Positions 42,293 to 59,389 of a stretch of DNA of 64,000 nt are shown here, piece after piece; position 1 is the stretch's first letter, and every line of letters starts with the position of its first letter. The notes beneath the pieces were generated by a model. It was not told the DNA's origin. It saw nothing but the letters and a program-made list of their open reading frames with translations, and did no database searches. The translations under genes were made by a program, and so were the position numbers. The DNA is taken from assembly GCF_003952365.1 (NCBI RefSeq), contig NZ_CP034443.1, positions 2,845,001 through 2,909,000 on the forward strand, in the 5' to 3' direction. The stretch comes from Mesorhizobium sp. M9A.F.Ca.ET.002.03.1.2. GTDB lineage: Bacteria; Pseudomonadota; Alphaproteobacteria; Rhizobiales; Rhizobiaceae.

Positions 42293-44263
42293 ATGAAGGA
42301 TGACGAGTTCAGGCCGAAGCTCGGCAAAATCGGGTCGCGCGGCTCGAAGGCAGGCAAACGCTATGCCGGTCAAGTCCGGGCAGCCGTCAACCGAGCCGGC
42401 GGCCAGCCCCAGCCCGGCGGTCGCTTCACGGGCAGCCGGACAGGGCGCGGCGGGGCGGCTGCGGCGCTGCTGAAATCGCGCGACCGGTATGCCGCCTTCC
42501 GCCAGCGCCGGGTGATCGTCAAGGCGCGGATCGTCAAGCTCGCCGGCAAGGGCGCGGACGGGGCGCGTGCCCATCTACGCTATCTTCAGCGCGACGGCGT
42601 CACCCGAGAAGGTGCGCCTGGCGAGCTCTACGGCGCCGACAGCGACCGCGTCGACGGCAAGGCGTTCATCGATCGCGCGGACGGCGACCGCCACCAATTC
42701 CGCTTCATCGTCGCTGCCGAAGACGGCATCGAGTATGAAGACCTGAAGGCGCTGACGCGGCGGCTCATGGCGCAGATGCAGGAAGACCTCGGCACGAAGC
42801 TCGACTGGGTCGCGGTTGATCATTTCAACACCGGCCACCCGCACAGCCACATCATCGTCCGAGGCAGGGACGACCGTGGCGAGAACCTGGTCATCGCGCG
42901 CGAATATATCTCATCTGGCATCCGCGAGCGGGCGGCCGAGCTGGTCAGCCTCGATCTCGGTCCGCGAACCGACCGCGAGATTGAGCTTCGCCTGCGCCGG
43001 GAAATGGAGCAGGAACGCTTCACCAGCATCGACCGTCGGCTGCTCAGCATGCGTGATGATGACGGGCTGGTCTCGCCGGGCGGTCCCGACGCCATTCGCC
43101 AGACGCTGCACCAGGGACGGCTGCGCAAGCTCGAGCGGATGGGTCTGGCCGCGGAGGTCGGCGCTGGCTCCTGGCGCCTCGACGATGAGCTCGAAGCCAC
43201 GCTGCGCCGCACCGGCGAACGCGGCGACATCATCAAGACCATCCACCGCGAACTGGCCGGCAAGGGGCTTGCACGCAGTGCCGCCGACTGGGTGATCCAC
43301 GATCGAGCCGGCGAGCCCGTCCAGTCTCTCGTCGGTCGCGTTGTCGCGCGTGGACTGGCCGACGAGATCAATGACCGCCACTACATGATCGTCGACGCCG
43401 TCGACGGTAAGAGCCATTGGATCGACATCGGTAGAGGCGAGGCGATGGAAACGATGCCTAATGGCTGCATCGTGCGTGTCGCGCCAAGGAACACCGAGCC
43501 GAGGCGGGTCGATCGTACCATCGCCGAAATCGCCGCCGCGAATGGCGGCCGTTACGACGTCGATATCCACCTGAAGCATGACCCATCCGCCACCGAGAGC
43601 TTTGCGCGAACGCATGTGCGGCGGCTGGAGGCGATCCGCCGCGCGACCGGCGGCGTTGAGCGAGAGCCGAACGGCACCTGGCTCATCGCGCCGGACCATC
43701 TCGATCGCGTCGCGAATTATGAGGGCCAGCGGGCCAGGGCCGAGCCTTTCGTTGTCGACAAGCTCTCCTCAATGGCGCTGGAGCGACAGGTCAGCTTCAA
43801 CGGCGCCACCTGGCTCGACCGGGAGCTGGTTGCCGATAGACCCGAGCCTTTGCACGGATCCGGCTTCGGCTGCGACGTGAGAGAGGCGCAAGCTCGCCGG
43901 CGGGAGTGGCTGATCGCGCAAGGCCACGCGCATGAAGAACAGGATCGGATCGTCTATCGAGCCAACATGCTTTCGATCCTGCGCCAGCGAGAACTGAACC
44001 GTGTTGCTGGCCAACTGTCGGAGGAACTTGGCCTGCCCTATGCCGAAGCGCGATCCGGAGGACGAGTAGAGGGTACGCTCCGCCGCTCCGTCGAGCTTGC
44101 CAGCGGAAAATATGCCGTCGTTGAGAAGTCGCGCGAGTTCACGCTGGTGCCATGGCGGCCGGTGCTTGAGCGCCATGTGGGCAAGGAGGTCTCCGGTGTC
44201 GTGAGTGGGGAGGGGATTTCATGGACCGTCGGCCGGCAAAGGAGCGGACCTGGTGTTTCGTGA
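42293..44263 (+). CDS. rlxS: RlxS-type relaxase (VirD2-like, DUF3363)
   Basis: Conjugative relaxase of 656 residues that nicks oriT and leads the strand into the recipient. The N-terminal relaxase region has RVIVKARIVKL, RAHLRYLQRDGV and the metal-binding histidines in VDHFNTGHPHSHIIVRG (near residues 180-195). The remainder is the DUF3363 domain found in relaxases of rhizobial ICEs. The C-terminus ends ISWTVGRQRSGPGVS. It is the fourth gene of the rdfS cluster. Part of its 3' end is duplicated at 48135-48236. Confidence 0.92.
   Translation: MKDDEFRPKLGKIGSRGSKAGKRYAGQVRAAVNRAGGQPQPGGRFTGSRTGRGGAAAALLKSRDRYAAFRQRRVIVKARIVKLAGKGADGARAHLRYLQRDGVTREGAPGELYGADSDRVDGKAFIDRADGDRHQFRFIVAAEDGIEYEDLKALTRRLMAQMQEDLGTKLDWVAVDHFNTGHPHSHIIVRGRDDRGENLVIAREYISSGIRERAAELVSLDLGPRTDREIELRLRREMEQERFTSIDRRLLSMRDDDGLVSPGGPDAIRQTLHQGRLRKLERMGLAAEVGAGSWRLDDELEATLRRTGERGDIIKTIHRELAGKGLARSAADWVIHDRAGEPVQSLVGRVVARGLADEINDRHYMIVDAVDGKSHWIDIGRGEAMETMPNGCIVRVAPRNTEPRRVDRTIAEIAAANGGRYDVDIHLKHDPSATESFARTHVRRLEAIRRATGGVEREPNGTWLIAPDHLDRVANYEGQRARAEPFVVDKLSSMALERQVSFNGATWLDRELVADRPEPLHGSGFGCDVREAQARRREWLIAQGHAHEEQDRIVYRANMLSILRQRELNRVAGQLSEELGLPYAEARSGGRVEGTLRRSVELASGKYAVVEKSREFTLVPWRPVLERHVGKEVSGVVSGEGISWTVGRQRSGPGVS
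44144..44257 (+). repeat. rlxS 3' end, upstream copy of a direct repeat
   Basis: Runs from CTGGTGCCATGGCGGCCGGT through GGCAAGGAGGT to CGGCAAAGGAGCGGACC. It matches 48135-48236 (CTGGTGCCATGGCGGCTGGT, GGCAAGGAGGTGTC, GGGCAAAGGAGCGGGCC) with scattered substitutions and a short deletion. The two copies bracket the ietAS pair. Confidence 0.75.
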
Positions 44264-44619: not shown

Positions 44620-45600
44620 ATGACCACGGCCCGCCATATCGTGACGCTGCTTAAAAGCCACTTTGCCGGCGACGAGGATCGTTTCCTCTCTATCGCGATG
44701 CAGCTTGCTGCGCATGAGGCACGTCAAGGCCATGGCAAGCTTGCTCAGGAGCTCAAGGATCTGGTCGACGCAGCCAAGAGCAGGGACGCCCGGATTGCCA
44801 AGAGCAGTCGGCCGGTTCCCCTTTTTCAGCCAAAGGGCGAGCTCGCAGGGCTCCTGCATGTGCGCTATCCGGACCTGCGACTGACCGACATGATTTTGCC
44901 GGACAGTCTGCGCTCGCGCCTGCACCGCGTGCTGGGAGAGCAGCGCCAACAAGCAAGCTTGCGCGAGCACGGGCTTGTTCCCCGTCGCAAACTGCTTCTG
45001 GTCGGCCCGCCAGGATCAGGCAAGACGATGACCGCATCGGCATTGGCCGGGGAGCTTCATCTGCCCCTTTTCACGATCGTCCTCGATGGTTTGATCACCA
45101 AGTTCATGGGAGAGACTGCCGGAAAGCTGCGGCTTGTTTTTGATGCAATGCAGGCGACGCGGGGCGTCTACTTCTTTGACGAATTCGATGCCATCGGCGC
45201 GCGTCGAGGCGAACGCCAGGATGTTGGCGAGATTCGGCGCGTGCTGAATTCGTTTCTGCAGTTTCTCGAGCAAGACGACAGCCACAGCCTGATTATTGCG
45301 GCAACAAATCATCCCGAGCTGCTCGACAGAGCTTTGTTCCGCCGTTTCGACAATGTCATCGAATACGCCGTGCCCGATCGGCCGATTATCGAGGCGCTGC
45401 TTCGGGCTCGACTCGACCGCTTCGACACCAGAGGGCTTGCCTGGAACGAGGCGATCTCTCAGGCAGAGAGACTGTCGCAGGCCGAGATCACCCGCGCGGC
45501 CGACGACGCTGCAAAAACCATCATATTGCGGGGGGGGGCGGATCACCTCGGAAGCGCTCATCGACGCTCTGAAGGAACGCCGGCAGGCTTCGCTGTCTGA
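44620..45600 (+). CDS. ietA: AAA+ ATPase, IetA-like (Gao_Iet type)
   Basis: AAA+ ATPase of 326 residues paired with a subtilase. The N-terminus (1-115) is helical; then Walker A GPPGSGKTM near residue 128, Walker B GVYFFDEFDAIG, sensor-1 IIAATNHPELLD and arginine-finger region RALFRRFDN. Such AAA-subtilase pairs are IetAS, described as a plasmid stability and incompatibility module in Agrobacterium and later listed among antiphage systems. A run of nine Gs at 45530-45538 shifts the last ~30 residues; with eight Gs the tail would read GGRITSEALIDALKERRQ and stop at 45604, which fits the family better. Confidence 0.85.
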   Translation: MTTARHIVTLLKSHFAGDEDRFLSIAMQLAAHEARQGHGKLAQELKDLVDAAKSRDARIAKSSRPVPLFQPKGELAGLLHVRYPDLRLTDMILPDSLRSRLHRVLGEQRQQASLREHGLVPRRKLLLVGPPGSGKTMTASALAGELHLPLFTIVLDGLITKFMGETAGKLRLVFDAMQATRGVYFFDEFDAIGARRGERQDVGEIRRVLNSFLQFLEQDDSHSLIIAATNHPELLDRALFRRFDNVIEYAVPDRPIIEALLRARLDRFDTRGLAWNEAISQAERLSQAEITRAADDAAKTIILRGGADHLGSAHRRSEGTPAGFAV

Positions 45601-45621: not shown

Positions 45622-48089
45622 ATGGCAGACGATTTTCCGCGCGACCGCGCCCATATCCACCTTCGCAACAACGGCATTCGGGAAGCCTATCGGCGGCCCA
45701 ACCAACTTATACATGCACCGCCGCTGCCGGCGCGTGATCGGGCGTCGCATGCTGCGGCCTTGACGCAATCCATCGAACAAGCGGTCGAAAGTGCACGCCA
45801 GCAGATTGCGGCGCGTGACCCCCAGCTGTCGGTCGGCACGCCTGGCTTTTATCTCGAGATCGATCTGCCCATGTCCGGACGGGCGGCCCTCGACCAGTTG
45901 GCCGATCGTCGCCAGCACATGGAGCTGGTCGCCGTCCATGAGCCAACTCAACCCGGTGCTCCCATCACAGCGTCGGTGTTCCTGCCGCAAAGCGCGCAAG
46001 CCTATTATTTGCGGAAAGTCGAGGCGTATCGAGACGTTGACACTGACCGCGGCAGACCGCGCAACGAGCCGCTCGTCTCCCGCATGGAGACAGTCAGGCT
46101 GGCGACTGCACGATCGTTGTTTACCGACCACGACGACCTCTTCCCCCAGGCCGCTGACGAGCAGGTGTGGTGGGAAGTCTGGCTGCGCGACGGTCGCCGC
46201 GAGAACTTCGAGCACATTGCCGAAGCCCTGAACATCACTTTGCGCACGCATGCGGTCAGGTTTCCGGAGCGGGTGGTCATGCTGGCACTCGCCAGCACGG
46301 CAATGCTCGACCGCATGATTGCGCACAGCGATGTCGTCGCCGAGCTGCGGCGCGCGAAGGATACGCCGTCCTTCTTCATGGGCCTTGGCGGCGCGGAGCA
46401 AAGGGACTGGAGCGACGAGCTTCTCGGGCGCGTCAGACCGCCTCAACCGATATTGCGGTCTGCATTCTCGACAGCGGCGTGCGTCGCACCCACCCGTTGA
46501 TCGAACCCGCACTTGCCGTTGAAGACTGGCACACCGTCAAACCGGCATGGGGCAGCGACGACACACCTGCGTGGAGCGGCCACGGGACGCGAATGGCAGG
46601 TGTCGGCCTGTACGGTGATCTGGTCCCGCTCCTGGTCGGAGGCGATCCAGTTCCATTGCCCTTTCGGCTGGAGAGTGTTCGTATCCTTCCGCCAGAAGAC
46701 GAGGCAAACGATCCAGAACTCTATGGCGCGATCACCGCGGAAGCGATCGCCCGCGCCGAGGTGCAGGCGCCGGAGCGCCGCCGCGCGATCGCAATGGCTG
46801 TGACAAGCGCCAGTCCGGCGCGTGGAAGGCCCACATCGTGGTCTGCCGCTATCGACCAACTCTGTTTCGAAGAGGAACAGCGACGCTTGATCGTTCTCTC
46901 TGCCGGCAACATCGGCGATGACCTCATGCCGGCCGAGCATTTGACGCGCAACGATCTGGAAGCAGTCGATGATCCTTCTCAGGCCTGGAATGCGCTGACG
47001 GTCGGCGCTTTCACAGAAAAGGTCGATATCATTGACACCGACTTTGCGGGCTACGCTCCGATCGCGCCGGTCGGCGAGCTCTCGCCGCGCAGTCGCACTT
47101 CGGTCGTTTGGGACAGGCAGTGGCCGGTGAAGCCCGAGGTCGTCTTCGAAGGCGGCAATCTCGCCCATGACGGTGTGTTGCCTGGCGAGCCGATCGACGA
47201 TCTGCAGATATTGACCACTTTCTATCGACCCGAACTGCGCCACTTCACCACCCTCGGAGATACGAGCGCGGCAACGGCCCATGCCGCACGGATGGCGGGA
47301 CTAATTCTATCAGCGCGCCCCGAGCTGTGGCCTGAAACGGTTCGCGCCCTGATCGTCCACTCGGCCGAATGGACTCCGGCGATGCGCGCACGCATCGATG
47401 CGTGCAACGGAGCGAAGGGCGAGATCCAGGCGCTCGTGCGGCGCTATGGTTATGGCGTGCCAGATCTTGGGCGCGCGCTTCTGTCAACGGTGAACGACCT
47501 CACGCTTATCGTTGAAGATGAGCTTCAGCCTTTCCAGCGCGAGGGCGGCGCGGCTGCCAAAACGCGTGACATGAAGCTGCATCGCCTGCCTTGGCCGAAG
47601 GAGCAGCTCGCGGCGCTCGGCGCTGCCCAGGTCGAGCTCCGCGTCACGCTGTCCTATTTCATCGAACCCAACCCCGGTGAACGCGGATGGACCCGCCGGC
47701 ATCGTTACGCGTCCCATGGTCTTCGGTTCAGAGTAAAGTCAGCGACCGAGACAGTCGACGAATTCCGAGCCCGCATCAATCAGGCCGCTCGGGACGAGGA
47801 GGAAGGGGCGCCTGCTGGAGGCGGAGAAGAGTGGCTGCTCGGCACCTTCCGCGATCGCGGCTCGTTGCACGCCGATTTCTGGTCGGGCAGCGCCGCCGAT
47901 CTCGCCGAGCGTGACGCGATCGGCGTGTTCCCGGTCGGGGGCTGGTGGAAGGAGAAGCCTTACCTGGAACGCGTCGACGCTCTGGCTCGGTACGCCCTGA
48001 TTGTGACGATTCGGGCGCCTGGGGTCGATGTTGACATCTTCACACCCGTCGAAGCAGCCCTGACTGTCGAGACGTCGGTCGAGACCTGA
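45622..48089 (+). pseudogene. ietS: Subtilisin-like protease, IetS-like, one frameshift
   Basis: Large S8 peptidase partner of the AAA ATPase. Frame one (45622 to about 46440) has the N-terminal domain, to AEQRDWSDELLGRV; the next frame then has the catalytic domain: Asp in VCILDSGV, His in SGHGTRMAG, oxyanion Asn in VLSAGNIGDD and Ser in LGDTSAATAHAARMA, ending at 48089 after a C-terminal beta-rich domain. One base is missing near 46436-46442 (GTCAGACCGCCTCAACCG). Repaired length is about 822 residues. All catalytic residues are intact, so an error in the read or a recent inactivation are both possible. Confidence 0.8.
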
Positions 48090-48303: not shown

Positions 48304-49863
48304 TTAGGCGGCCGAGACATCGCTTACCTGATCAACGGGCTCGCCGTATTTGCGCCTGTAAGCGGCAATGAAATCGTCGTCGCTACAGATGCAGCGGCCG
48401 CTGGAGTCCTTGGCCTTCGGATCGTGCAAGTGAGAGCCAAGGGGGCGCAGAAGATTCACCCGAGTGCTCGTCGTCGGGCTCATGGGAAACCCCGCACTAT
48501 GTTTGACCAAATCCGCGGCAAGCATAATCCCGGCAAGCACCGACTGAAAGGCCATCGGAACGACAGTTCGAACGCGGCGACTTCCTTCGCTAAGCTGGAA
48601 CACCAGACCGCCGCAGATAGCCTGCTGATAAAAGGAGCGCAGGGGCTGGCCGACAAACGGGGCTAGCGGTTCAAACGGCACAGCCATCGCTGTAGCCACG
48701 CGAACTACAAAGTCGTTGGGAACTCCGGCATTGGTCTGCAGGAGCGTTTTCACCTGCTCGTGTGCTTCCGGTATTCCGAGTTCCTCGGCAATCAGCTGGT
48801 GCTCGTCCTTGGATTTTCCGGATGGCAGGTACATGCAACAAAGGCAAGCCTGGCCGTCATCGAAACCATGCCGGGAGATACCGAGATCGTGCTCCTGCGT
48901 CCAAGCGTTTGCGATCCATCGCGGCAGTGCACCTTGGACAGCCAGACGGTCGGCGGCGGTGTCAAGCGCCACACCCACTTGGTCGAAGACCCAATTGCCC
49001 CGGCGCGCAACATATTCTGCCCACGTCAGAGGGTGCGCCTCGACCTCAAGGGCAGTCGATCTAAGGGCGGTGGCTGCAAGAACCGCCTTGGACATACCAA
49101 TCTCCGCCTGGCCGGCCAATGCGTAGCGCTGCAGGTTTGAGAGTTCGATCGCTTCGTGATCGATTACATGCAGACGACCCTTGAGATCGGGTTGTCTCGC
49201 TAGCGCCCAAAGCGAGCCATGGCCTATCGCACCGAGCCCAACGAGGTGGGTTTCGCCAAGGTCGACTGGAAAGTCGATCGGGCCAGCCTCCCCGGCTTTG
49301 GTCTTGTCGTAGCTGCATAGCGAGAGGTCGATGGTTTCGTCCAACTCGGCGCCGGTCAACTGGGCGGCGAAGATAGTTCGAAAGACGTTGGCGGCGCCGA
49401 AGCAACTGGCGGCGCCAGCTCCATAAGGCAGCAGACTTGGGCCAGAGCCCACCGGGTCCGTACGCGACAGCTTTGCCGCCCAACCGTCCGATCCCACGAA
49501 AAAGATCGGGCACCGGAGTGATGGGCGCGTTACCCCTGCAACGACGCAGACGGTGGCAGACTTGCCGGAACGCCGGATGCCGACTTTTGGATTGATCGAC
49601 TTTGCCAAGCGCTCCAGCGCTTGGGCTTGAGAGCTCGCCGCGCTGTCCAGCGGGAGTATCGCCAGAACCGGGTAGAGCCTAGCGAGCAATCTCACCGCAA
49701 GATCTAATGTCGCCTGGCCTTCGGCGCAGGAAGCGGCCTGATGGTCGAAGGCGACTGCCACGACCTGCTTTTCAAGAGCTGCTTTGAAGTCTCCCAGATG
49801 AAAATCGGCCAGGACCTGAGATGCCGCCGTGGCGGCGCGATCGATGAAGTTAGCGAATGCCAT
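48304..49863 (-). CDS. E1-like ThiF-family activating enzyme of ubiquitin-like system
   Basis: 519-residue protein with an N-terminal region of about 200 residues, possibly an inactive Rossmann-like domain, and a ThiF/E1 adenylation domain. The ATP loop is LVGLGAIGHGS near residue 210, then the DHEAIELSNLQRY acidic and Arg motif and the GMSKA lysine. ACLCCMYLPSGK near residue 330 supplies candidate catalytic or zinc cysteines. It should adenylate the C-terminus of the small Ubl encoded first in the operon and pass it on as a thioester. Last gene of Ubl-E2-like-JAB-E1, three bases after the JAB gene. No role is demonstrated; related operons act in antiphage defence. Confidence 0.87.
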   Translation of the reverse strand: MAFANFIDRAATAASQVLADFHLGDFKAALEKQVVAVAFDHQAASCAEGQATLDLAVRLLARLYPVLAILPLDSAASSQAQALERLAKSINPKVGIRRSGKSATVCVVAGVTRPSLRCPIFFVGSDGWAAKLSRTDPVGSGPSLLPYGAGAASCFGAANVFRTIFAAQLTGAELDETIDLSLCSYDKTKAGEAGPIDFPVDLGETHLVGLGAIGHGSLWALARQPDLKGRLHVIDHEAIELSNLQRYALAGQAEIGMSKAVLAATALRSTALEVEAHPLTWAEYVARRGNWVFDQVGVALDTAADRLAVQGALPRWIANAWTQEHDLGISRHGFDDGQACLCCMYLPSGKSKDEHQLIAEELGIPEAHEQVKTLLQTNAGVPNDFVVRVATAMAVPFEPLAPFVGQPLRSFYQQAICGGLVFQLSEGSRRVRTVVPMAFQSVLAGIMLAADLVKHSAGFPMSPTTSTRVNLLRPLGSHLHDPKAKDSSGRCICSDDDFIAAYRRKYGEPVDQVSDVSAA

Positions 49864-49866
49864 TGT

Positions 49867-50355
49867 TCAACTCGATATCATGATCATTCGCGACAGTGCC
49901 GCGGGAGGGAGCGCATTCCATTTGGCCTTTTCGTCAAGCCGATAGGCGGCGACCCGAGCAAAATCGAAAGGCTCGCGGGCGAAATTCGGCACCACCAGCG
50001 ACAGACACCCAACCGTGGTAGCAACCGCATAAGCGTCGTCCGTCGTCGAATGGTAGGCGCGGCCCGGATGGCTGTGAATCTGGGCCAAGAGTTTCAGGCC
50101 GCTTTTGTAGAGCCAGACATTGAGCCGGTGCAGTTCTTCGGCCGCAACGATCACGCAAACGCCATCGTTTGTTCGAATGTGACGCTGCGCCGGGATAACC
50201 GTCTCTGTTACGGCAAAGTGCCGGTCTTCCTGAACGCCGACCCAAAGTGCCATCCCCTCATTGCCCTCGCGACCAACTGAGCGCAGATGCCCATGCGTGG
50301 TCGAGATGCAGCCGCGCGGGAGAGTCACGATCGTTACATCTCTCAAACCAGTCAT
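49867..50355 (-). CDS. JAB/MPN-type isopeptidase of ubiquitin-like system
   Basis: 162-residue JAMM metalloprotease. Zinc ligands are in QIHSHPGRAYHSTTDD (H-S-H-P-x5-S-x2-D) with the upstream Glu in FAVTETVIP. In this setting it is expected to trim the Ubl precursor or remove Ubl from targets. ATG 50355 overlaps the preceding gene's stop by four bases; the longer frame to 50505 is an antisense-free extension into that gene and is not conserved. Confidence 0.87.
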   Translation of the reverse strand: MTGLRDVTIVTLPRGCISTTHGHLRSVGREGNEGMALWVGVQEDRHFAVTETVIPAQRHIRTNDGVCVIVAAEELHRLNVWLYKSGLKLLAQIHSHPGRAYHSTTDDAYAVATTVGCLSLVVPNFAREPFDFARVAAYRLDEKAKWNALPPAALSRMIMISS

Positions 50356-50969
50356 TCTTGTATCGCCTGAGGGGATACCACCATTCCTACGATTGTCGGT
50401 TGGAGTTGAATCTGCAACTGCTCTATAGGAACGATTCCGTACTTGATGATCTTGTCCAGGATGAAGGCCAAACAGCCTTCGCCAGAACCCCGATGAAGTA
50501 GCCATGGATCACCTGAATGGGCTGGATTGTCGTGGTATTCCCGGACGCCCGCCATGCACAGGAATGGTTCGTCCTCGGGACTGTTGGCCTGGATGAAGTC
50601 CGTCAGCGGCACGGCGTTCTGCTGGATGAGAGCTCCTATCATCTCCGGCGGCGTTCCGGGCAGCGGCGGACGTCTAAGCATTTTCAGGTATAGATCTTTC
50701 CGGGCAATCGGATCACGCGTAAACGGATCGACGAAGACCACGGACGGTGGTCTTAAGTCGTAGTCGGTGAAGTCGACCTCGCTCGCTGCGCTGACCACCC
50801 GTGGCTTTAACTTGGGGCTGGCGAAAATGAAGAAAGCGCGCGGAAAAGTCGCCTCGATCAAGAAGCAGCCCTGAGCCCGATAGACATCAGCATATGGCCG
50901 GAACCGGCCGATCTCCCGATCAAACTTCGCTCGGGAGACCTCCGGATCCACACTTTGGGGTTTAGGCAC
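50352..50969 (-). CDS. E2-like protein with CEHH motif
   Basis: 205 residues from a GTG at 50969 that overlaps the Ubl stop. Residues about 30-100 resemble the E2 fold (FLIEATFPRAFFIFASP, DLRPPSVVFVDPFTRDP). The conserved C-terminal motif FLCMAGVREYHDNPAHSGDPW contains Cys, Glu, His and His in the order of the CEHH family known from bacterial ubiquitin-like operons. The Cys is the best candidate for a thioester-carrying or metal-binding residue. E2 activity is inference from position and fold resemblance. Confidence 0.72.
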   Translation of the reverse strand: MPKPQSVDPEVSRAKFDREIGRFRPYADVYRAQGCFLIEATFPRAFFIFASPKLKPRVVSAASEVDFTDYDLRPPSVVFVDPFTRDPIARKDLYLKMLRRPPLPGTPPEMIGALIQQNAVPLTDFIQANSPEDEPFLCMAGVREYHDNPAHSGDPWLLHRGSGEGCLAFILDKIIKYGIVPIEQLQIQLQPTIVGMVVSPQAIQE

Positions 50970-51258
50970 CTGCGACGCCCGCCTTCAGGCTGAGGAACAG
51001 GGTCACAGTATTCGGGAAACCGAAATCGCCAAGCTTCTTGTCGACGTCGAGCAAGTTGCCGGCCTCATCCTTGAATTCCCAATTCTCGGCTGGTTGGGCG
51101 ACATTCTGCGTGTTCTCAAGGGCTTTGGTACGAATGACGTGAAGCGGCTGGTTGGGATTGGCTTCGACCTGCGTGGGCTGGCCGTTCACCACCACCGTGA
51201 TCTCGATCTTGCCCGGTCCGCCGCCGTGATTATCGCCCTTACCCGAATCCTTCGACAT
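50962..51258 (-). CDS. Ubiquitin-like protein (DUF2604/multiubiquitin type)
   Basis: 98 residues. After a flexible Gly-rich N-terminus (KDSGKGDNHGGGPGK) comes a single beta-grasp domain: IEITVVVNGQPTQVEANPNQ, HVIRTKALENT, NWEFKDEAGNLLDVDKK, DFGFPNTVTLFLS. It ends KAGVAGA, without a Gly-Gly terminus but with a small-residue tail that the JAB protein could trim. The ATG at 51258 has AGGAG before it. First gene of the four-gene operon. Confidence 0.85.
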   Translation of the reverse strand: MSKDSGKGDNHGGGPGKIEITVVVNGQPTQVEANPNQPLHVIRTKALENTQNVAQPAENWEFKDEAGNLLDVDKKLGDFGFPNTVTLFLSLKAGVAGA

Positions 51259-52040: not shown

Positions 52041-52072
52041 TTGCTCATGTGATCTGTGGAAGTGAGGATAGC

Positions 52073-55000
52073 GTGCACCCGTACAAACTAGACATTCATC
52101 GTGGCAGCTTGGCTGCAGGTGCAGCACGCCGTACCGCACGAGCAAGCGGACAGGCCGGCCAAGCCGGTTTTGAGCAGCACTTGGGCGAACTGCAGGCGGC
52201 GGACGAGTTGATGGGTGCGCCAGGCGAGGAGGTCCTCGTCAATGGCTCGCATGGTAAAGGTGAGTTGAGACCAACGAAGAGGCAGAGGATCCAAAGCAAT
52301 CTGCAGCATGCTGTCACTGAGCGGCAACCAGGTGAGGTTGGCAACTCAGGCGCTCGCGTGATGATGCAACTCCCCACCCATCAGGTGGGTACATCGGAAC
52401 GGGAGGCGCAACTTGTGATGCAGGGGGACGAGCACGAATACACCCCAGCACCGCATCTCGACGGGTCGATGCCCTCGACAGTGCAGCCGGATCGTCCAAT
52501 TGTGGTCCCCGACGGTGCCGACAAGCGTCCTGTTTATTCCAACGATGCCACCGCCATCGAAGGGCTGAAGTCAGCACTCCTTGCGGGTAAAGCCAGGCCG
52601 GACACGGTCACTCGCAGCACAAATTCTCTTTTCGGCTTTAGTCGTTGGCTCTTTCAAAACAACAAGCCAGGGCTTGCTGCTCGGCTTTACCATCCGTCGC
52701 TGAGCCAGGATCTCGAGGAGTACGAGAGTAGGGGTGGTTCCTCCACCGTGGCTGGCGCACTGCGTCAATTGATGAAGTCGATGGGCGGAGCCGGCCCGAT
52801 TGTGGGTCGCGCTGTCCTGAACCCCCATCCTGACGACGCCGCGCTCACCAGACATTTCAGATCCGCGAGCGGCTACGCAACTGCTCTTAACCATTTCAGT
52901 CATTACCTACGTCAAAATGACAAGCTCGGAATTGCGGGTCGCATTTACGATAAATCGCTGGATAAAGATGTTGAGAGCTACAAGGCCGCCTCCTCTAATG
53001 GTGGAGCTCCGATCGAATCTGCGCTGGTTTATCTCCGCAAGAACCCGCCGCGCGTTATACTCGGGAATCATCTGGAAAACGCGGTCAGCATGGAGGCTCG
53101 TCCCCGTGGCGACGCTGCTCAGCATACCGCACCACAGCAGGGATTCGATTGGCCAGAGGAGCTCCTGCCGGTAGGTTATAAGGAGGGCACCGATCTACCA
53201 TTGTCTCTCGCCCCAACCGCGCACCAACACCAAGCGCCCGACTTTGGAGAGGCCGTCCCTCACTTGAACTGGCGCCACGGCGACCAGGGCGCCCCGGAGG
53301 AGCTGGTAGCTGCACGGGACAGGAGCAGCCCGCTGCCAAGCGAGGCGGTGCCACATAAATCTGGACGGGGACTCGCTACGCAGCCCAGATTGTGGGCGGA
53401 GAAATCCGCCTCGCCAGAGCTCTTTCGACGGCGGGCGGAGCAGGCTCTGCCGGCGTCCGCCAGAGGTGTGGAGACATCCTCCGCGGTTGATGAAGCCGCG
53501 CAGGCCGCTCGCCAAGCTTTGGCTTGGTTGCAGCAGGAGATGGAGGGGATCGAACCGATGCAGGATCCTCATAAGGTGGCTACACCGGAATGTGAGGCGC
53601 AGCTCGTCAGGCAGAGGGATGAGCACGAATCCACCCCAGCACCGCATCCCGGAGGTGGTGGGTCGATGCCCTCGACAGTGCAGCCGGATCGTCCAATTGT
53701 AGTCCCCGACGGTGCCGACAAGCGTCCTGTCTATTCCAACGATGCGACCGCTATCGAAGGGCTGAGGGCAGCATTCCACGCGGGTAAGGCCAAAGCGAAC
53801 ACGGTCACTTACAATGTAAATTCTCTTTTCGGCTTTAGTCGGTGGCTCCTTCAAAACAACAAGCCAGGGTTTGCTGCTCGGCTTTACCATTCGTCGCTGG
53901 ATCAGGATCTCAAGGAGTACGAGAGTACGGGTGGTTCCTCCACCGTGGCTGGCGCACTGCGTTACCTCAAGAAGTCGACAGGCGGAGCCCAGATTATGGC
54001 TCGCCCTGTCGTGATCCCCTATCCTGACGATGCCGAGCTCATTAGAAATTACAGAGCCGCTTCGACCAAGGAGTACCTGGCAGCGCCTGCGACCGGACGG
54101 AATCCAGATACCGTGGGCGGCTATACAAATTTTCTTAGACATTTTAGTCAGTACCTGCGTCAAAATAACAAGCTTGGGATTGCGGCTCGGATTCACGACA
54201 AATCGCTGGATAAAGATGTTGAGAGCTTCAAGGCTGTCTCCTATGGTAATAGGCTAAGTATCAGTTCTGCATTGGCTCACCTCCGGGATATCCTGCCGCG
54301 CATTGTGCTCGGGCGCGAAACTGTCCTTTCTGCTCATCCGGCAGACGCAGTCACCAGGCGCGTTGGGGCCGCTGCTGAAGCTGGGCCAGCGGCACCGGCA
54401 AGAGCTCCCCAACCCGCCTCGCCAGCAACCGCTAGGCTGCCAGGCACCTACCGCGGCCTTCCACTGGTTGATGTGACCACACTGACTACCAGTTCCTCTG
54501 GGGCTCAGATCGGGTCGCTCGATCCGACAGCCCCGTCCAACGTTGCAACGGGGCGGGTGCTCGGCGCCGCCGAATGGCTGAGCGACGCCCATATCCAGAG
54601 AGATTACAATTTGCTGGAGGGGCAACTGCAGGGGATCAATCCGGCGCTCGCTGCCCGGACTCGGCTGGTGGATCCTTCCGTATCCCATCTACTGCGACAC
54701 ACGTCGCCGCAAGACGCTCGAGGCATATTGCAGTCCATCTATAATCAAAACAACGCCACAGCCGACTTCCTGTTCTTGCCAGTGAATAATGGCACGGCTA
54801 CTAGCCCCGGCACCCATTGGTCGCTGCTGCTCGTTGATCGCCGCGACCCGGAAAGGCGGTTCGCCTATCACTACGACTCCCTCCAGCGAGAGGGATATAA
54901 CGACGTGCCTGCAAAACAGCTCGCAGGACTGCTGAATGCCACCTTGGCGCCAGCCCCCATGGCCAGACAGACGAACCATTATGATTGCGGCGTATTTGTC

Positions 55001-55645
55001 CTGGAGGGCACGTGGGCGCTGGTTGAACGATTGGTGAAAGGGCAGCGGCCAGACCACGAGCCGCTGCCCCTCGACAACCTCGTTGCCGATCGGCAGGCGC
55101 TGCAAGACCGGCTAAGGAGGCGCTTGCCGCACGAGGAAGAGCCGCGGCAGCTGCTGGAGGATGAACCCGCCTCCCCACCGATGATGGCATTCGAGCCAGG
55201 GGAACTGCGGCAACTGTTGGAAGACGAGCCTGCCTCCCCACCAATGATGGCGTTCGAGCCAGGGGAACTGCGGCAACTGTTGGAGGACGAACCTGCCTCC
55301 CCACCAATGATGGCGTTCGAGCCAGGGGAACTGCGGCAACTGTTGGAGGACGAGCCTGCCTCCCCACCAATGATGGCGTTCCAGCCAGGGGAACTGCGGC
55401 AGCTGTTGGAGGATGAACCCGCTTCCCCACCGATGATGGCGTTCGAGCCAGGGGAACTGCGGCAACTGTTGGAGGATGAACCCGCTTCCCCACCGATGAT
55501 GGCGTTCGAGCCAGGGGAACTGCGGCAACTGTTGGAAGACGAGCCTGCCTCCACTTGGGCACAAATCAATTCGACCCCACATGCGCGAGCGGACGGTGTT
55601 CATCAGCCAGCCCAGGCGCCGTGGCTCCCTGAACGCAGAAGATAA
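52073..55645 (+). CDS. Type III effector with Ulp1/XopD-type SUMO protease domain
   Basis: Predicted secreted effector of 1190 residues, of the NopD/XopD-like C48 peptidase group, likely cleaving SUMO from host proteins. GTG 52073 has GAGG five bases before it; a GTG at 52049 adds eight residues. N-terminal region includes a basic RPTKRQR, a possible nuclear signal. The middle holds four related segments (pattern FSxWLxxNxKxGxAxRxYxxSL), in two large duplicated blocks. The protease domain (about 870-1010) has His in GTHWSLLLVD, Asp in YHYDSLQ, Gln and Cys in RQTNHYDCGVFV. The C-terminus has seven 21-residue repeats. A tts box precedes it. Secretion and target are inferred. Confidence 0.87.
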   Translation: MHPYKLDIHRGSLAAGAARRTARASGQAGQAGFEQHLGELQAADELMGAPGEEVLVNGSHGKGELRPTKRQRIQSNLQHAVTERQPGEVGNSGARVMMQLPTHQVGTSEREAQLVMQGDEHEYTPAPHLDGSMPSTVQPDRPIVVPDGADKRPVYSNDATAIEGLKSALLAGKARPDTVTRSTNSLFGFSRWLFQNNKPGLAARLYHPSLSQDLEEYESRGGSSTVAGALRQLMKSMGGAGPIVGRAVLNPHPDDAALTRHFRSASGYATALNHFSHYLRQNDKLGIAGRIYDKSLDKDVESYKAASSNGGAPIESALVYLRKNPPRVILGNHLENAVSMEARPRGDAAQHTAPQQGFDWPEELLPVGYKEGTDLPLSLAPTAHQHQAPDFGEAVPHLNWRHGDQGAPEELVAARDRSSPLPSEAVPHKSGRGLATQPRLWAEKSASPELFRRRAEQALPASARGVETSSAVDEAAQAARQALAWLQQEMEGIEPMQDPHKVATPECEAQLVRQRDEHESTPAPHPGGGGSMPSTVQPDRPIVVPDGADKRPVYSNDATAIEGLRAAFHAGKAKANTVTYNVNSLFGFSRWLLQNNKPGFAARLYHSSLDQDLKEYESTGGSSTVAGALRYLKKSTGGAQIMARPVVIPYPDDAELIRNYRAASTKEYLAAPATGRNPDTVGGYTNFLRHFSQYLRQNNKLGIAARIHDKSLDKDVESFKAVSYGNRLSISSALAHLRDILPRIVLGRETVLSAHPADAVTRRVGAAAEAGPAAPARAPQPASPATARLPGTYRGLPLVDVTTLTTSSSGAQIGSLDPTAPSNVATGRVLGAAEWLSDAHIQRDYNLLEGQLQGINPALAARTRLVDPSVSHLLRHTSPQDARGILQSIYNQNNATADFLFLPVNNGTATSPGTHWSLLLVDRRDPERRFAYHYDSLQREGYNDVPAKQLAGLLNATLAPAPMARQTNHYDCGVFVLEGTWALVERLVKGQRPDHEPLPLDNLVADRQALQDRLRRRLPHEEEPRQLLEDEPASPPMMAFEPGELRQLLEDEPASPPMMAFEPGELRQLLEDEPASPPMMAFEPGELRQLLEDEPASPPMMAFQPGELRQLLEDEPASPPMMAFEPGELRQLLEDEPASPPMMAFEPGELRQLLEDEPASTWAQINSTPHARADGVHQPAQAPWLPERRR
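52389..54310 (+). repeat. Large internal duplication inside effector gene
   Basis: Block A (52389-53075) and block B (53580-54310) are closely similar, for example CAGTGCAGCCGGATCGTCCA in both. Each encodes two helical units of the FSRWL/FSHYL kind, so the protein has four. The pattern recalls the SAM-like core-binding domain of tyrosine recombinases and the repeats of other rhizobial effectors. Confidence 0.85.
55145..55552 (+). repeat. 63-bp coding tandem repeat, six full copies plus a partial
   Basis: Encodes RQLLEDEPASPPMMAF(E/Q)PGEL, 21 residues, six times, then RQLLEDEPAS. Copies differ by only a few, mostly silent, bases, which points to recent expansion. Acidic, Pro/Met-rich and with LL motifs, at the effector C-terminus after the protease domain. 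Confidence 0.95.
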
Positions 55646-55863
55646 CTTTGCGGAGGAGCGGTCACGCAACTGTCGGCGGCGCCGGGCCTCAGGGTGAATG
55701 GAAAGGATGGAGTGGCGGATGGTGTCGCGTGAAGGCGCAACACGCGTGCTGACCGACCTGATACGTAGGAAGTCGTTCATTGCTCCCAAATCGTATGTGA
55801 GGAACATTCCTGTCCCGGCTGCGCCGCGCGATGCTAGGTCGCGTTGTTCAGCGGGCCAAGCCG

Positions 55864-57894
55864 ATGACACCTACGAAGCTACTGATCGGGCAGATCGCCG
55901 TTGTGTGCGCAATTGTCATTATCGGCGTATGGACGGCAACCCAATGGTGCGCTCAAATGCTGACCTACCAGACGCCTCTCGGCGCACCATGGTTTCTCTT
56001 CGCCGGCTGGCCAATCTACAAGCCGTGGAAGCTGTTTGAATGGTGGTTCCACTTCGATGCTTATGCGCCGGAGGTCTTCGACAAAGCCGGTACGCTTGCA
56101 GGCGCCAGCGGATTCCTGGGCTGTGCCGCCGCAATCGCTGGCTCGCTTTTGCGCGCGCGACAGCGCGGGTCGGTTACGACCTATGGGTCTTCACGGTGGG
56201 CCACGACTCATGAGGTCGAGACGGCAGGGTTGTTACGGCCGGCGGGCGTTTTCCTCGGTAGGCTGAACGATCGCTATCTGCGCCATGACGGCCCGGAGCA
56301 CGTCATGGCATTTGCGCCGACGCGTTCGGGCAAGGGCGTGGGGCTGGTTGTTCCAACGCTACTTTCCTGGACCGGGTCTGCCATCATTCATGATATAAAA
56401 GGCGAAAATTGGCAGTTGACCTCCGGCTGGCGGTCGAAATTCTCGTACTGCCTTCTGTTCAATCCGACCGACCCGAGATCGGCACGCTACAACCCGCTGC
56501 TGGAGGTACGCAAAGGCCCAGATGAGATCCGAGACGTTCAAAACATCGCCGACATCCTCGTCGATCCCGAGGGCGCGCTGGAGCGACGGAACCACTGGGA
56601 GAAGACCAGCCATTCACTCCTAGTTGGCGCCATTTTGCACGTGCTCTACGCTGAAGAGGAAAAGACGCTGGCCCGCGTCGCCACCTTCCTGTCGGACCCG
56701 CAACGCTCGTTTGCCGCAACGCTACAGCGGATGACGACGACAAACCATCTCGGGACGGGGCATAACCCTCAGGTCCATCCCGTAGTGGCCTCGGCGGCTC
56801 GCGAACTCCTGAACAAGTCGGAGAACGAGCGCTCAGGCGTCCTCTCGACCGCCATGTCCTTTCTCGGGCTTTATCGTGATCCAACGGTCGCGACGGCCAC
56901 TTCGTCCTGCGACTGGCGCATCGCTGACCTAGTGGATGGAGAGCGACCGCTGTCGCTCTATCTGGTCGTGCCGCCTTCGGATATCTCGCGCACCAAGCCT
57001 TTGGTGCGACTGATCTTGAACCAGATCGGCAGGCGGTTGACGGAGCGCCTGGAGGGGGACCCGAAGAAGAGCCGTAAGCATCAACTGCTCATGATGCTGG
57101 ACGAGTTTCCGGCGCTCGGTCGCCTCGACTTCTTCGAGACGGCGCTCGCCTTCATGGCAGGTTATGGCATTCGCTCCTATCTGATCGCACAATCTTTGAA
57201 CCAGGTTTCAAAGGCCTATGGCGAGAACAATGCTATTCTCGACAATTGCCACGTGCGAATTGCCTTTTCCTCCAATGACGAACGCACGGCCAAGCGCATC
57301 TCGGATGCCCTCGGCACCGCAACCGAACTTAGGTCGATGCGCAACTATGCGGGCCATCGGCTTGCGCCCTGGCTTTCGCATGTCATGGTGAGCCGCCAGG
57401 AAACCGCGCGCCCGCTCCTGACGCCAGGCGAGGTGATGCAATTGCCGCCGTCAGACGAATTGGTCCTGGTTTCTGGGTTGCCGCCGATCCGCGCCAAGAA
57501 GCTGCGCTATTATCAGGATCAGAATTTCACAGACCGGGTGCTGCCTGCGCCGGTGCTGCGCGACGGTCCCTATGCGGACTGCCCTGCATCACGCCCGGAC
57601 GGCTGGACTGGACAAGTGTGCAGCGTCGATAGCCGACTTGCTGCGGACGACGAAAGCGCCGACGCGCCAGTTGAAGACGAGGGAGGCGTTCAGCAGCAAC
57701 GCCATCCAAGCCTGCCCGTAGAAGACGTTGTTGTCTCTCAAGAGCCCGATCAGGCCGATCTGTTGAAGCCCGCAGACGATGACAGCGAAGCGCTCGCGGA
57801 CAAGCGTGTCATGGATCGGATTTCCACTGCGGCCCGCGCCTACGGTATCAACGAGGGCAGGGGCGACGACAAGGATGTCATTCCCGGCTTCTGA
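55864..57894 (+). CDS. traG: TraG/VirD4-type conjugative coupling protein
   Basis: Inner-membrane ATPase that links the relaxosome to the mating channel; 676 residues from ATG 55864 (an ATG at 55831 would add 11). Two N-terminal membrane segments (QIAVVCAIVIIGVWTATQW and GASGFLGCAAAIAGSLL) precede Walker A APTRSGKGVG near residue 155 and Walker B LLMMLDEFPALGRL near residue 415, with the family GENNAILDNCHVRIAF motif. A hydrophilic acidic tail follows residue 560. It heads the transfer block that continues into trb genes. Confidence 0.93.
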   Translation: MTPTKLLIGQIAVVCAIVIIGVWTATQWCAQMLTYQTPLGAPWFLFAGWPIYKPWKLFEWWFHFDAYAPEVFDKAGTLAGASGFLGCAAAIAGSLLRARQRGSVTTYGSSRWATTHEVETAGLLRPAGVFLGRLNDRYLRHDGPEHVMAFAPTRSGKGVGLVVPTLLSWTGSAIIHDIKGENWQLTSGWRSKFSYCLLFNPTDPRSARYNPLLEVRKGPDEIRDVQNIADILVDPEGALERRNHWEKTSHSLLVGAILHVLYAEEEKTLARVATFLSDPQRSFAATLQRMTTTNHLGTGHNPQVHPVVASAARELLNKSENERSGVLSTAMSFLGLYRDPTVATATSSCDWRIADLVDGERPLSLYLVVPPSDISRTKPLVRLILNQIGRRLTERLEGDPKKSRKHQLLMMLDEFPALGRLDFFETALAFMAGYGIRSYLIAQSLNQVSKAYGENNAILDNCHVRIAFSSNDERTAKRISDALGTATELRSMRNYAGHRLAPWLSHVMVSRQETARPLLTPGEVMQLPPSDELVLVSGLPPIRAKKLRYYQDQNFTDRVLPAPVLRDGPYADCPASRPDGWTGQVCSVDSRLAADDESADAPVEDEGGVQQQRHPSLPVEDVVVSQEPDQADLLKPADDDSEALADKRVMDRISTAARAYGINEGRGDDKDVIPGF

Positions 57895-58010: not shown

Positions 58011-58424
58011 ATGAAGCCCCACCGCATTCGCCATCAGTTTCTGCTTGAGCCGGAGCTCAGCGAGAAACTGGACAACCTCAGTCGCGATCCGTCAACGACC
58101 AAATCAGCGATCGTGGCGAAGGCGGTCGAGGCGTTCATCGAGCGGCGTGGCGAGAACGAGTTCGATCGGCGCTACGGCGTAAGGCTTGACCGGCTCTCCC
58201 GCGACCTTGCCCACGTCAGGCGCGATGCCGAGGTGATCCTGGAGAGTCTGGCGCTCTTCATCCGCTTTTCGATCACGCTTCATGCCCACACGCCTGTGCC
58301 GGACAGGGCGACCCAGGCGATTGCCCAGGAGCGTTTTGACAAATTCGTTGAGCAGGTCGGCCGCCAGATCGCTTCCGGCAAAAGGTCGCTTAGCAAAGAC
58401 AATGGTGGGGGAGGGGAAGGATGA
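58011..58424 (+). CDS. Ribbon-helix-helix (CopG-like) protein before trbB
   Basis: 137 residues from ATG 58011. The N-terminus (RIRHQFLLEPELSEKLDNLS, then TTKSAIVAKAVEAFIERR) is a CopG-type ribbon-helix-helix DNA-binding domain; the rest is a helical tail ending in a Gly-rich stretch. Homologues commonly sit between traG and trbB in rhizobial elements and may regulate the trb operon. It overlaps trbB by four bases. The earlier frame start at 57948 is unconserved. Confidence 0.8.
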   Translation: MKPHRIRHQFLLEPELSEKLDNLSRDPSTTKSAIVAKAVEAFIERRGENEFDRRYGVRLDRLSRDLAHVRRDAEVILESLALFIRFSITLHAHTPVPDRATQAIAQERFDKFVEQVGRQIASGKRSLSKDNGGGGEG

Positions 58425-59389
58425 GCTCTCATCCCGAGGCCGACCACCGGCGGCGTGTCATGCTGCGCACCGCCCTGGGTCCGGCAATCACCGAAGCCCT
58501 TGCCGATCCGTCCGTCATCGAGGTGATGGTCAATCCCGACGGTGCGCTGCGGCTCGACCGGCTGGGCGAGGGCCGAGTCAATACGGGCGTGCATCTGCAC
58601 CCGTCCGAGGCGGAACGCATCATCCGCCTGGTCGCCTCCCATGTGCGGGTCGAGGCGCACGCGGACAATCCGATTGTCAGTGCCGAACTGCCGTCGGGCG
58701 AGCGCTTCGAGGGTCTGCTGCCGCCGGTCGTGCTCGCGCCATGCTTTGCCATCCGTAAACCAGCGGCAAAGCTCTACACGCTGGCCGACTATGTCGCGGA
58801 CCGGATCATGCTGCCGCTGCAGGTCGATGTGCTCAAGAGGGCAGTCCGCGAGCGGCGCAACATCCTGGTCGCCGGCGGCACGTCTTCGGGCAAGACAACC
58901 CTTGCCAATGCGCTGCTGGCGGAGGTCGCAGAATGCGACGAGCGGGTGATCCTCATCGAGGACACGCGCGAACTGCAGTGCGCGGCCAGGGACTGCGTTG
59001 CCCTGAGAACGAGGCGGGGCTCGGTCACCCTTGCCGATCTCGTGCGCTCAACGCTGCGGCTCAGGCCCGACCGCATCATCGTCGGCGAAGTAAGAGGTGC
59101 GGAAGCACTCGACATGCTGAAGGCATGGAACACCGGGCACCCCGGCGGCATCGCCACGGTTCACGCCAATTCGGCGCGCTCCGCACTCTACCGTATCGAG
59201 CAGCTCGCACAGGAAGCAGTCGTCACCGTTCCCCGCCGCCTCATCGCCGATGCCGTCGACCTGCTCGTCTTCATCGCCGGCCGCGGCTCGTCGCGCCACA
59301 TCGACGCAATCGCCGAGGTCACCGGTCTCGACGGCAGCGGCGATTACGCCGTTGCCCCGCTCACGCTTTCGCAACTCCAGCAGCTTTGA
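58421..59389 (+). CDS. trbB: TrbB, VirB11-like secretion ATPase
   Basis: Cytoplasmic hexameric traffic ATPase of the P-type mating-pair apparatus; 322 residues. Walker A GGTSSGKTT near residue 150, Asp box VILIEDTRELQ, His box GHPGGIATVHANS and LRLRPDRIIVGEVRG are all intact. It starts the trbBCDEJL run. Confidence 0.95.
   Translation: MSSHPEADHRRRVMLRTALGPAITEALADPSVIEVMVNPDGALRLDRLGEGRVNTGVHLHPSEAERIIRLVASHVRVEAHADNPIVSAELPSGERFEGLLPPVVLAPCFAIRKPAAKLYTLADYVADRIMLPLQVDVLKRAVRERRNILVAGGTSSGKTTLANALLAEVAECDERVILIEDTRELQCAARDCVALRTRRGSVTLADLVRSTLRLRPDRIIVGEVRGAEALDMLKAWNTGHPGGIATVHANSARSALYRIEQLAQEAVVTVPRRLIADAVDLLVFIAGRGSSRHIDAIAEVTGLDGSGDYAVAPLTLSQLQQL

Follow-up and report, generated by a model that had tools for sequence, protein, structure and literature searches.

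A 64,000-nucleotide stretch of the genome of Mesorhizobium sp. M9A.F.Ca.ET.002.03.1.2 (contig NZ_CP034443.1, positions 2,845,001 to 2,909,000), hereafter the window, carries an intact copy of the known bacterial ubiquitin-like defence system Bil, made up of a ubiquitin-like protein (Ubl; BilA), a CEHH-type E2 (BilB), a JAB peptidase (BilC) and an E1 (BilD). We hold with considerable confidence that this complete operon is most likely antiphage and rides as cargo on a Mesorhizobium symbiosis integrative and conjugative element (ICE), where it lies next to the relaxase gene, at a place in which defence genes are over-represented. The four genes are the following:

50962..51258, minus strand: bilA, ubiquitin-like protein (DUF2604), 98 amino acids; Pfam 2e-36; PDB 8TYX_A 1.7e-57
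50352..50969, minus strand: bilB, CEHH-type E2, GTG start, 205 amino acids; Pfam Metal_CEHH 8.4e-100; PDB 8TYZ_C 3.5e-112
49867..50355, minus strand: bilC, JAB/JAMM peptidase, 162 amino acids; Pfam Prok-JAB 6.8e-7; PDB 8TYX_B 8.5e-86
48304..49863, minus strand: bilD, E1, 519 amino acids; Pfam Prok-E2_C 1.1e-76 and ThiF 4.5e-11

Each reading frame is closed by a stop codon and has no internal stops, and the Ubl, CEHH E2, JAB and E1 genes stand together in one operon, with an 8-bp overlap between bilA and bilB, a 4-bp overlap between bilB and bilC and a 3-bp gap between bilC and bilD. An earlier note, made from the letters alone, had described four overlapping minus-strand genes; the four frames lie where it placed them but overlap at only two of the three junctions, and its wording was slightly too strong because the JAB and E1 genes are 3 bp apart. 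Its naming of the four proteins holds, both in the Pfam profiles, including the CEHH and DUF2604 searches it had proposed, and in PDB orthologues of all four, aligned near full length (8TYX, 8TYY, 8TYZ and 8TZ0, with chains named BilA–BilD), which also bear out the kinship it saw with a phage-defence system. A sequence search of PDB gave BilD 1049.7 bits against 8TYZ_A across 518 residues. PADLOC recognizes BilC (5.2e-17) and BilD (2.4e-15), with zero matches for BilA or BilB, and NCBIfam returned zero matches for the Ubl, E2 and JAB proteins of the window. Operon integrity in relatives, which the note had asked for, is high: all four proteins are matched in 102 of 104 loci compared (two of them the window's own), which argues that the operon is not a chance arrangement, and the Ubl match is absent from L008 and L009. 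Internal stops in the best alignments occur only in L101 (one in E1) and in L081 (one in E2 and two in E1), a decayed operon whose Ubl tail is also altered. There is no E3 among the four genes of the operon. Across 28 representative loci, no neighbour family recurs between genera at the thresholds used as a fifth conserved component would, except for three-locus neighbour families among Sinorhizobium/Rhizobium records. A promoter and terminator scan gave no signal above shuffles.

The earlier note had staked its reading on structure prediction returning the expected folds, the E2 fold of BilB among them. At E 0.001 or better, the AlphaFold2 model of BilB (14 rows, mean pLDDT 71.5, pTM 0.68, weak at residues 141–155 and 184–205) matched PDB three times, each time an E2 chain of the E1–E2–Ubl complexes 8TZ0 and 8TYZ, with a TM score of 0.87 by target length; the model has the E2 fold expected of a Bil member. 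The catalytic residues agree as well. PMC11354881 gives BilB Cys138, Glu144, His146 and His151 and BilD Cys417 as residues of the system, and all are present at identical numbers in the window. BilC has Glu33, His94, His96 and Asp106-107, with an HSHP motif at 94, and BilD has a GLGAIG motif; these motifs, the CEHH cysteine and the Ubl tail are as first described. Counted over rows with a letter, the residues are invariant across relatives in E2 (100 of 100) and JAB (101 of 101), and Cys417 of E1 in all 69 rows that reach its column, 32 more ending before it. The ratio of non-synonymous to synonymous divergence (dN/dS) is 0.07–0.38 in comparisons with a synonymous divergence (dS) of 0.09 to 1.

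BilA ends AGVAGA, that is, in Gly97 followed by one alanine. Among 100 relatives (L001, L004, L008 and L009 having been set aside), Gly97 is kept in 99, the exception being L081, and the residue after it is alanine in 75, glycine in 14, valine in 7, different in L081 and absent in 3; BilA ends at the glycine itself in L007, L084 and L085. Since Gly97 is so widely kept while the next residue varies or is absent, Gly97 is the likely mature end, AG the likely conjugating end and the last residue probably dispensable, in line with the trimming of the tail that had been suggested. In the mechanism we propose, BilC would remove the last residue of BilA and free Gly97, as a review reports for the family; BilD would activate BilA and hold it on Cys417; and BilB would receive it on Cys138 and pass it to a target protein. 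Where the BilA tail needs no trimming, BilC presumably deconjugates.

The system itself is not new. The structures 8TYX, 8TYY, 8TYZ and 8TZ0 are of what we take, from a legend in PMC11354881 (reference 54 there), to be the Ensifer aridi Bil of Chambers et al. The active residues are the same as in the window, whose bil genes form an allele set of their own, next to the relaxase gene rlxS of a Mesorhizobium ICE, with no mechanistic difference demonstrated. The E. aridi genome L066 carries the same operon, with identities to the window of 93, 84, 80 and 91% for Ubl, E2, JAB and E1. Iyer et al. had already listed the operon type in a 2006 table (PMC1779556, row 6c), with M. loti, R. etli, NGR234, R. 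palustris and M. magnetotacticum as hosts. Row 6c gives the parts of the window type (an E2+E1 protein, a JAB protein and a 'predicted metal binding protein'), although its listing has no Ubl and the remark on mobile elements belongs to the sister row 6b. With solved orthologues and a 2006 tabulation, a novel conjugation system is ruled out, and the novelty implied by the earlier note falls away. Type II cyclic-oligonucleotide-based antiphage signalling systems (CBASS) share E1/E2 and JAB parts with the operon, and PMC10952713 lists PF14455, PF14464 and PF14459 for both them and Bil. In the window, however, the Ubl is a gene of its own and no cyclase occurs among the scanned genes: PADLOC (the four genes and two plus-strand neighbours) and Pfam (seven proteins) gave no match to a CD-NTase cyclase, and type II CBASS was rejected on that count.

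Antiphage action of Bil is reported in PMC12948488 and PMC11364771, through which we cite the Collimonas system of Hor et al. (2024), where the target is the central tail fibre of the phage and defective particles result. Both that system and the operon in the window are four-part Ubl conjugation sets, but two ubiquitin-like domains are ascribed to the Collimonas BilA and the window BilA has one. By analogy, the window copy may likewise act on phage tails.

The claim of a symbiosis-island setting stands: bil lies on a conjugative element beside relaxase, TraG and type IV secretion system (T4SS) genes.

42293..44263, plus strand: relaxase (DUF3363/Relaxase), classed as rlxS-type from its family and surroundings, next to which bil lies; Pfam DUF3363 3.9e-145 and synteny
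55831..57894, plus strand: TraG-type coupling protein of the ICE; Pfam T4SS-DNA_transf 3.1e-105
58421..59389, plus strand: TrbB-like T4SS ATPase of the ICE; Pfam T2SSE 1.8e-40

The window further encodes biotin, NAD and pantothenate genes, a LuxR-type regulator, ArdC, other T4SS genes and a signal-peptidase-type TraF candidate, with no tRNA within it to mark an island end, and the same 6.4 Mb contig carries nodA at 2,444,288 and four nitrogenase-family genes at 2.496–2.502 Mb. By analogy with the gene order rdfS-traF-msi107-oriT-rlxS of ICEMlSymR7A (PMC11963761), oriT may lie just upstream of 42293. An identical E2 is found, among named records, in Mesorhizobium.

The place beside rlxS is shared. 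A survey of 146 Mesorhizobium genomes gave 55 CEHH places of at least 285 bits, a cut set after the score gap had been seen, and in 54 of them bilB and rlxS, the relaxase gene of the ICE, are convergent. The relaxase 3′ end lies at most 2.5 kb from the E2 end in 16 of the 55, 2.5–7 kb in 36, and 11 and 16 kb in two; G448, which has an internal stop, is the single one with no relaxase on its contig. The fetched loci from Mesorhizobium-type records agree, with a convergent relaxase in 42 of 43 (L081 without), spaced 40–71 bp from bil in 13 loci and 3.7–4.1 kb in 29 loci of the window lineage, where IetAS-type genes lie between. No relaxase of the rlxS family was found near bil in the Sinorhizobium, Rhizobium and Bradyrhizobium loci. 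L076 is M. loti CJ3Sym, the recipient of ICEMlSymR7A in a mating (PMC4572658), so that this reference island, too, probably carries bil. No paper in the literature searched, whose scope excluded subscription papers and supplements, links Bil to rlxS or symbiosis islands, and the main texts of the symbiosis ICE (ICESym) papers PMC8627217, PMC4572658, PMC8090884 and PMC11963761 contain no word beginning 'ubiquitin'.

Where no bil adjoins it, the 3′ side of rlxS tends to hold matches to other defence genes. We chose 35 rlxS-type places by hand, 31 of them in genomes lacking a high-scoring bil and four in genomes that have one (G466, G476, G489 and G505), and took their 3′ sides; 33 had enough DNA, L124 and L126 being too short. 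PADLOC was run on the largest open reading frame (ORF) within 7.5 kb at 29 places (first on long ORFs of 19 loci, 20 proteins, and afterwards on the largest ORFs of another 10), and the unscanned L113, L116, L127 and L130 were counted as negative. A defence match at E 1e-5 or better was found in 19 of the 33 sides without adjacent bil, 17 of them at 1e-15 or better, to models that include DndD/PbeC, PDC-S06, ZacC, HamB, PD-Lambda-4, DruA, LmuB, PifA, dCTPase, DpdB and IetS. Single-gene matches do not prove complete systems, some of these models hold common helicase or ATPase domains, and metabolic genes occupy some of the sites (L112). As a control, 20 random 8.3 kb windows were drawn from ten of the same genomes and 19 scanned, L158 being dropped because it overlaps rlxS; one of the 19 gave a match, a weak one (L157). 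The proposed hotspot is thus enriched over random windows (19 of 33 against 1 of 19, p = 2.4e-4, with a further p of 1.1e-4; unscanned loci negative, relatedness uncorrected).

Bil is favoured as the explanation by the structure-level orthologues, the E2 model match, the invariant residues and the low dN/dS, and its antiphage role by the action reported for the family, the enrichment beside rlxS and the IetAS-type neighbours. Several observations weigh against this reading. PMC11354881 describes BilA with two ubiquitin-like domains, a feature that the 98-residue window protein with its single DUF2604 lacks; the PDB BilA chains of 98–100 residues, however, have one domain like the window protein and bear the same name, so that a two-domain BilA does not define the family. 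The mechanism cited comes from another genus, by way of reviews. As many as 48 of 101 nodA-positive Mesorhizobium genomes have no high-scoring bil, and four full-length, diverged copies of 242–247 bits that fall outside the 55 (G155, G397, the second copy of G414 and G493) have no adjacent rlxS match. Among the defence matches, that of L109 is weak and to the same model as the one match among the random windows (L157), and not all are independent, since L137/L139, L128/L142 and L140/L141 each match the same models as a pair. That bil is so closely associated with symbiosis elements might also reflect a function in symbiosis. For the exchange of bilB described below, two of ten triplets departed from the eight that gave 0 in 5,000 permutations (WIN/L083/L066 gave 23 and L066/L002/L071 gave 497), and the best bilD tree unites the window and L071 groups with L079 at a support of only 74/59.

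One alternative, which we consider unlikely, is that Bil chiefly counters competing mobile elements, or works on the entry or transfer of the ICE itself, by tagging conjugation proteins. The convergence with rlxS in 54 of 55 copies would suit it, as would the lack of the entry-exclusion gene trbK from ICESyms reported in PMC8627217. The 48 nodA-positive genomes without a high-scoring bil mean, however, that bil is not needed for the ICE; bil also occurs in three other genera with no rlxS-family relaxase nearby, and other genes at this site give matches to phage-defence models.

Within the operon, bilB looks like the exchangeable part. Between the window and L003, L071, L072, L073, L076 and L078, dS is 0.70–0.81 in bilB and 0.16–0.29 in bilA, bilC and bilD; the rise spans the whole of bilB, with 0.46–0.53 in the catalytic segment (four relatives tested). 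For bilB, trees that keep the two Mesorhizobium groups together are rejected (approximately unbiased test, p-AU 2e-6); for bilD, trees that join the window with Sinorhizobium are rejected (p = 4e-36); and a triplet test with E. aridi L066 as third row places the best segment at 205–912 of the operon (0 of 5,000 permutations); these p-values are optimistic because the groups were named after the identity profile had been seen. Nine A-type and six B-type E2 rows have no residue in common at 31 positions, against one position each in Ubl, JAB and E1. L079 is a further mosaic, extending into bilC. The rival view, that bilB diverged by fast evolution in place and E2 is no swapped cassette, seems to us improbable. 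The window E2 protein is 72–75% identical to those of the six B-type relatives, and the catalytic segment is better kept (82–88% in four), as that view would expect, but synonymous divergence is raised some three- to four-fold, in bilB alone and along its whole length, and the tree conflict and the 205–912 segment also oppose it. These patterns suggest that bilB alone was exchanged between operon lineages, and such single-gene exchange would point to E2 as the chooser of the target. We therefore put forward, tentatively and as the less probable part of our account, that defence systems are exchanged at the 3′ side of rlxS in symbiosis ICEs of Mesorhizobium and in elements related to them, and that Bil there keeps its Ubl–E1 core while swapping E2 as a specificity cassette, E2 picking the phage target where there is no E3.

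The distribution of bil follows nodA. In Mesorhizobium, all 53 genomes with CEHH of at least 285 bits have nodA, as do 48 of the 93 others; with every CEHH match counted, the figures are 57 of 59 and 44 of 87 (p = 3e-10), whereas a PglZ control gave 6 of 8 and 95 of 138 (p = 1). In Bradyrhizobium, with 16 weak nodA matches dropped and 15 of 22 CEHH genomes used, nodA is in 14 of 15 CEHH genomes and 94 of 180 others, or 16 of 17 and 92 of 178 when two 144-bit CEHH genomes are added. CEHH above 240 bits occurs in 4 of 394 genomes of a family-wide sample, three of them with nodA, and all eight matching plasmid records, pNGR234a included, are from Sinorhizobium or Mesorhizobium. Among named genomes (given for 40 of 67 loci), 36 of 40 have nodA; the related operons without it are in Bradyrhizobium nitroreducens, two Methylobacterium and a Sphingomonadales metagenome-assembled genome. 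In 24 same-contig cases, nodA lies 17–41 kb (13) or 258–813 kb (11) away. Genomes with two copies also occur: G465 and G466 each have one bilB copy about 320–330 kb and another about 18 kb from a nodA, and Rhizobium mesoamericanum STM3625 and R. altiplani have two bil operons each (L064 and L077; L065 and L074). This association in two genera and on plasmids is what one would expect if Bil acted in nodulation or bacteroids, modifying bacterial or host proteins, but we judge that very unlikely: the position of bil on the ICE explains the link, the counts are uncorrected for relatedness and are not independent events, and 4 of 40 genomes have related operons without nodA. Least probable of all is a decaying passenger with no present function, for which the broken frame of the neighbouring IetS and the decay of L081 might speak, but against which stand four intact genes, conserved catalytic residues and low dN/dS.

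Three further genes flank the operon:

44620..45600, plus strand: IetA-like AAA ATPase, between relaxase and bil; PADLOC IetA 9.6e-72
45622..48089, plus strand: IetS-like subtilase, frame broken, not part of Bil; PADLOC IetS 1.5e-25 (longer ORF)
52049..55645, plus strand: Ulp1-domain protein resembling secreted SUMO proteases, not part of Bil; Pfam Peptidase_C48 3.2e-7

The IetS-like gene is in two parts in different frames, as in 9 of 29 related loci; the parts share one frame in the other 20 (in L039 and L041 the second part is in pieces), so that intact-frame copies exist. The Ulp1-domain protein scores 81.1 bits against the XopD model, far under the cut-off of 700, and to judge from its domain it may attack host SUMO. 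A Ulp1-type gene is found in 40 loci, all of the window lineage except the plasmid L106 (64% identity), and was not found in the 20.6 kb of L082, also of that lineage. The tie between bil and a SUMO-directed effector drawn in the earlier note is not supported: the gene was seen beside bil only in the window's island lineage and L106, nothing links the two functionally, and an effector–Bil partnership was rejected. The observation behind that note is confirmed, its interpretation partly supported. Within the Ulp1-domain gene, a tandem array at 55144–55552 has 6.5 copies of a 63-base unit. Elsewhere, Sinorhizobium plasmids L002, L105 and L107 have annotated VapC toxin and StbC genes upstream of bil, divergent from bilA; seven Bradyrhizobium loci (L086, L087, L090, L092, L093, L095 and L096) have recurring small genes 3′ of bil, peroxiredoxin- and AhpD-like by eye; and a Mesorhizobium plasmid (L003:5017-7083) carries a second ubiquitin-like set, an annotated multiubiquitin protein and ThiF, about 8–10 kb from bil.

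With this operon a system already solved gains another copy. What is useful is the setting, which connects Bil with symbiosis elements that pass from one nodule bacterium to another and points to a defence site at the side of the relaxase gene. The natural A-type and B-type alleles of bilB, in otherwise similar operons, make it testable how Bil picks a target without an E3. If the tentative proposal is right, the rlxS side would be a site of defence exchange and bilB a specificity cassette swapped on a Ubl–E1 core.

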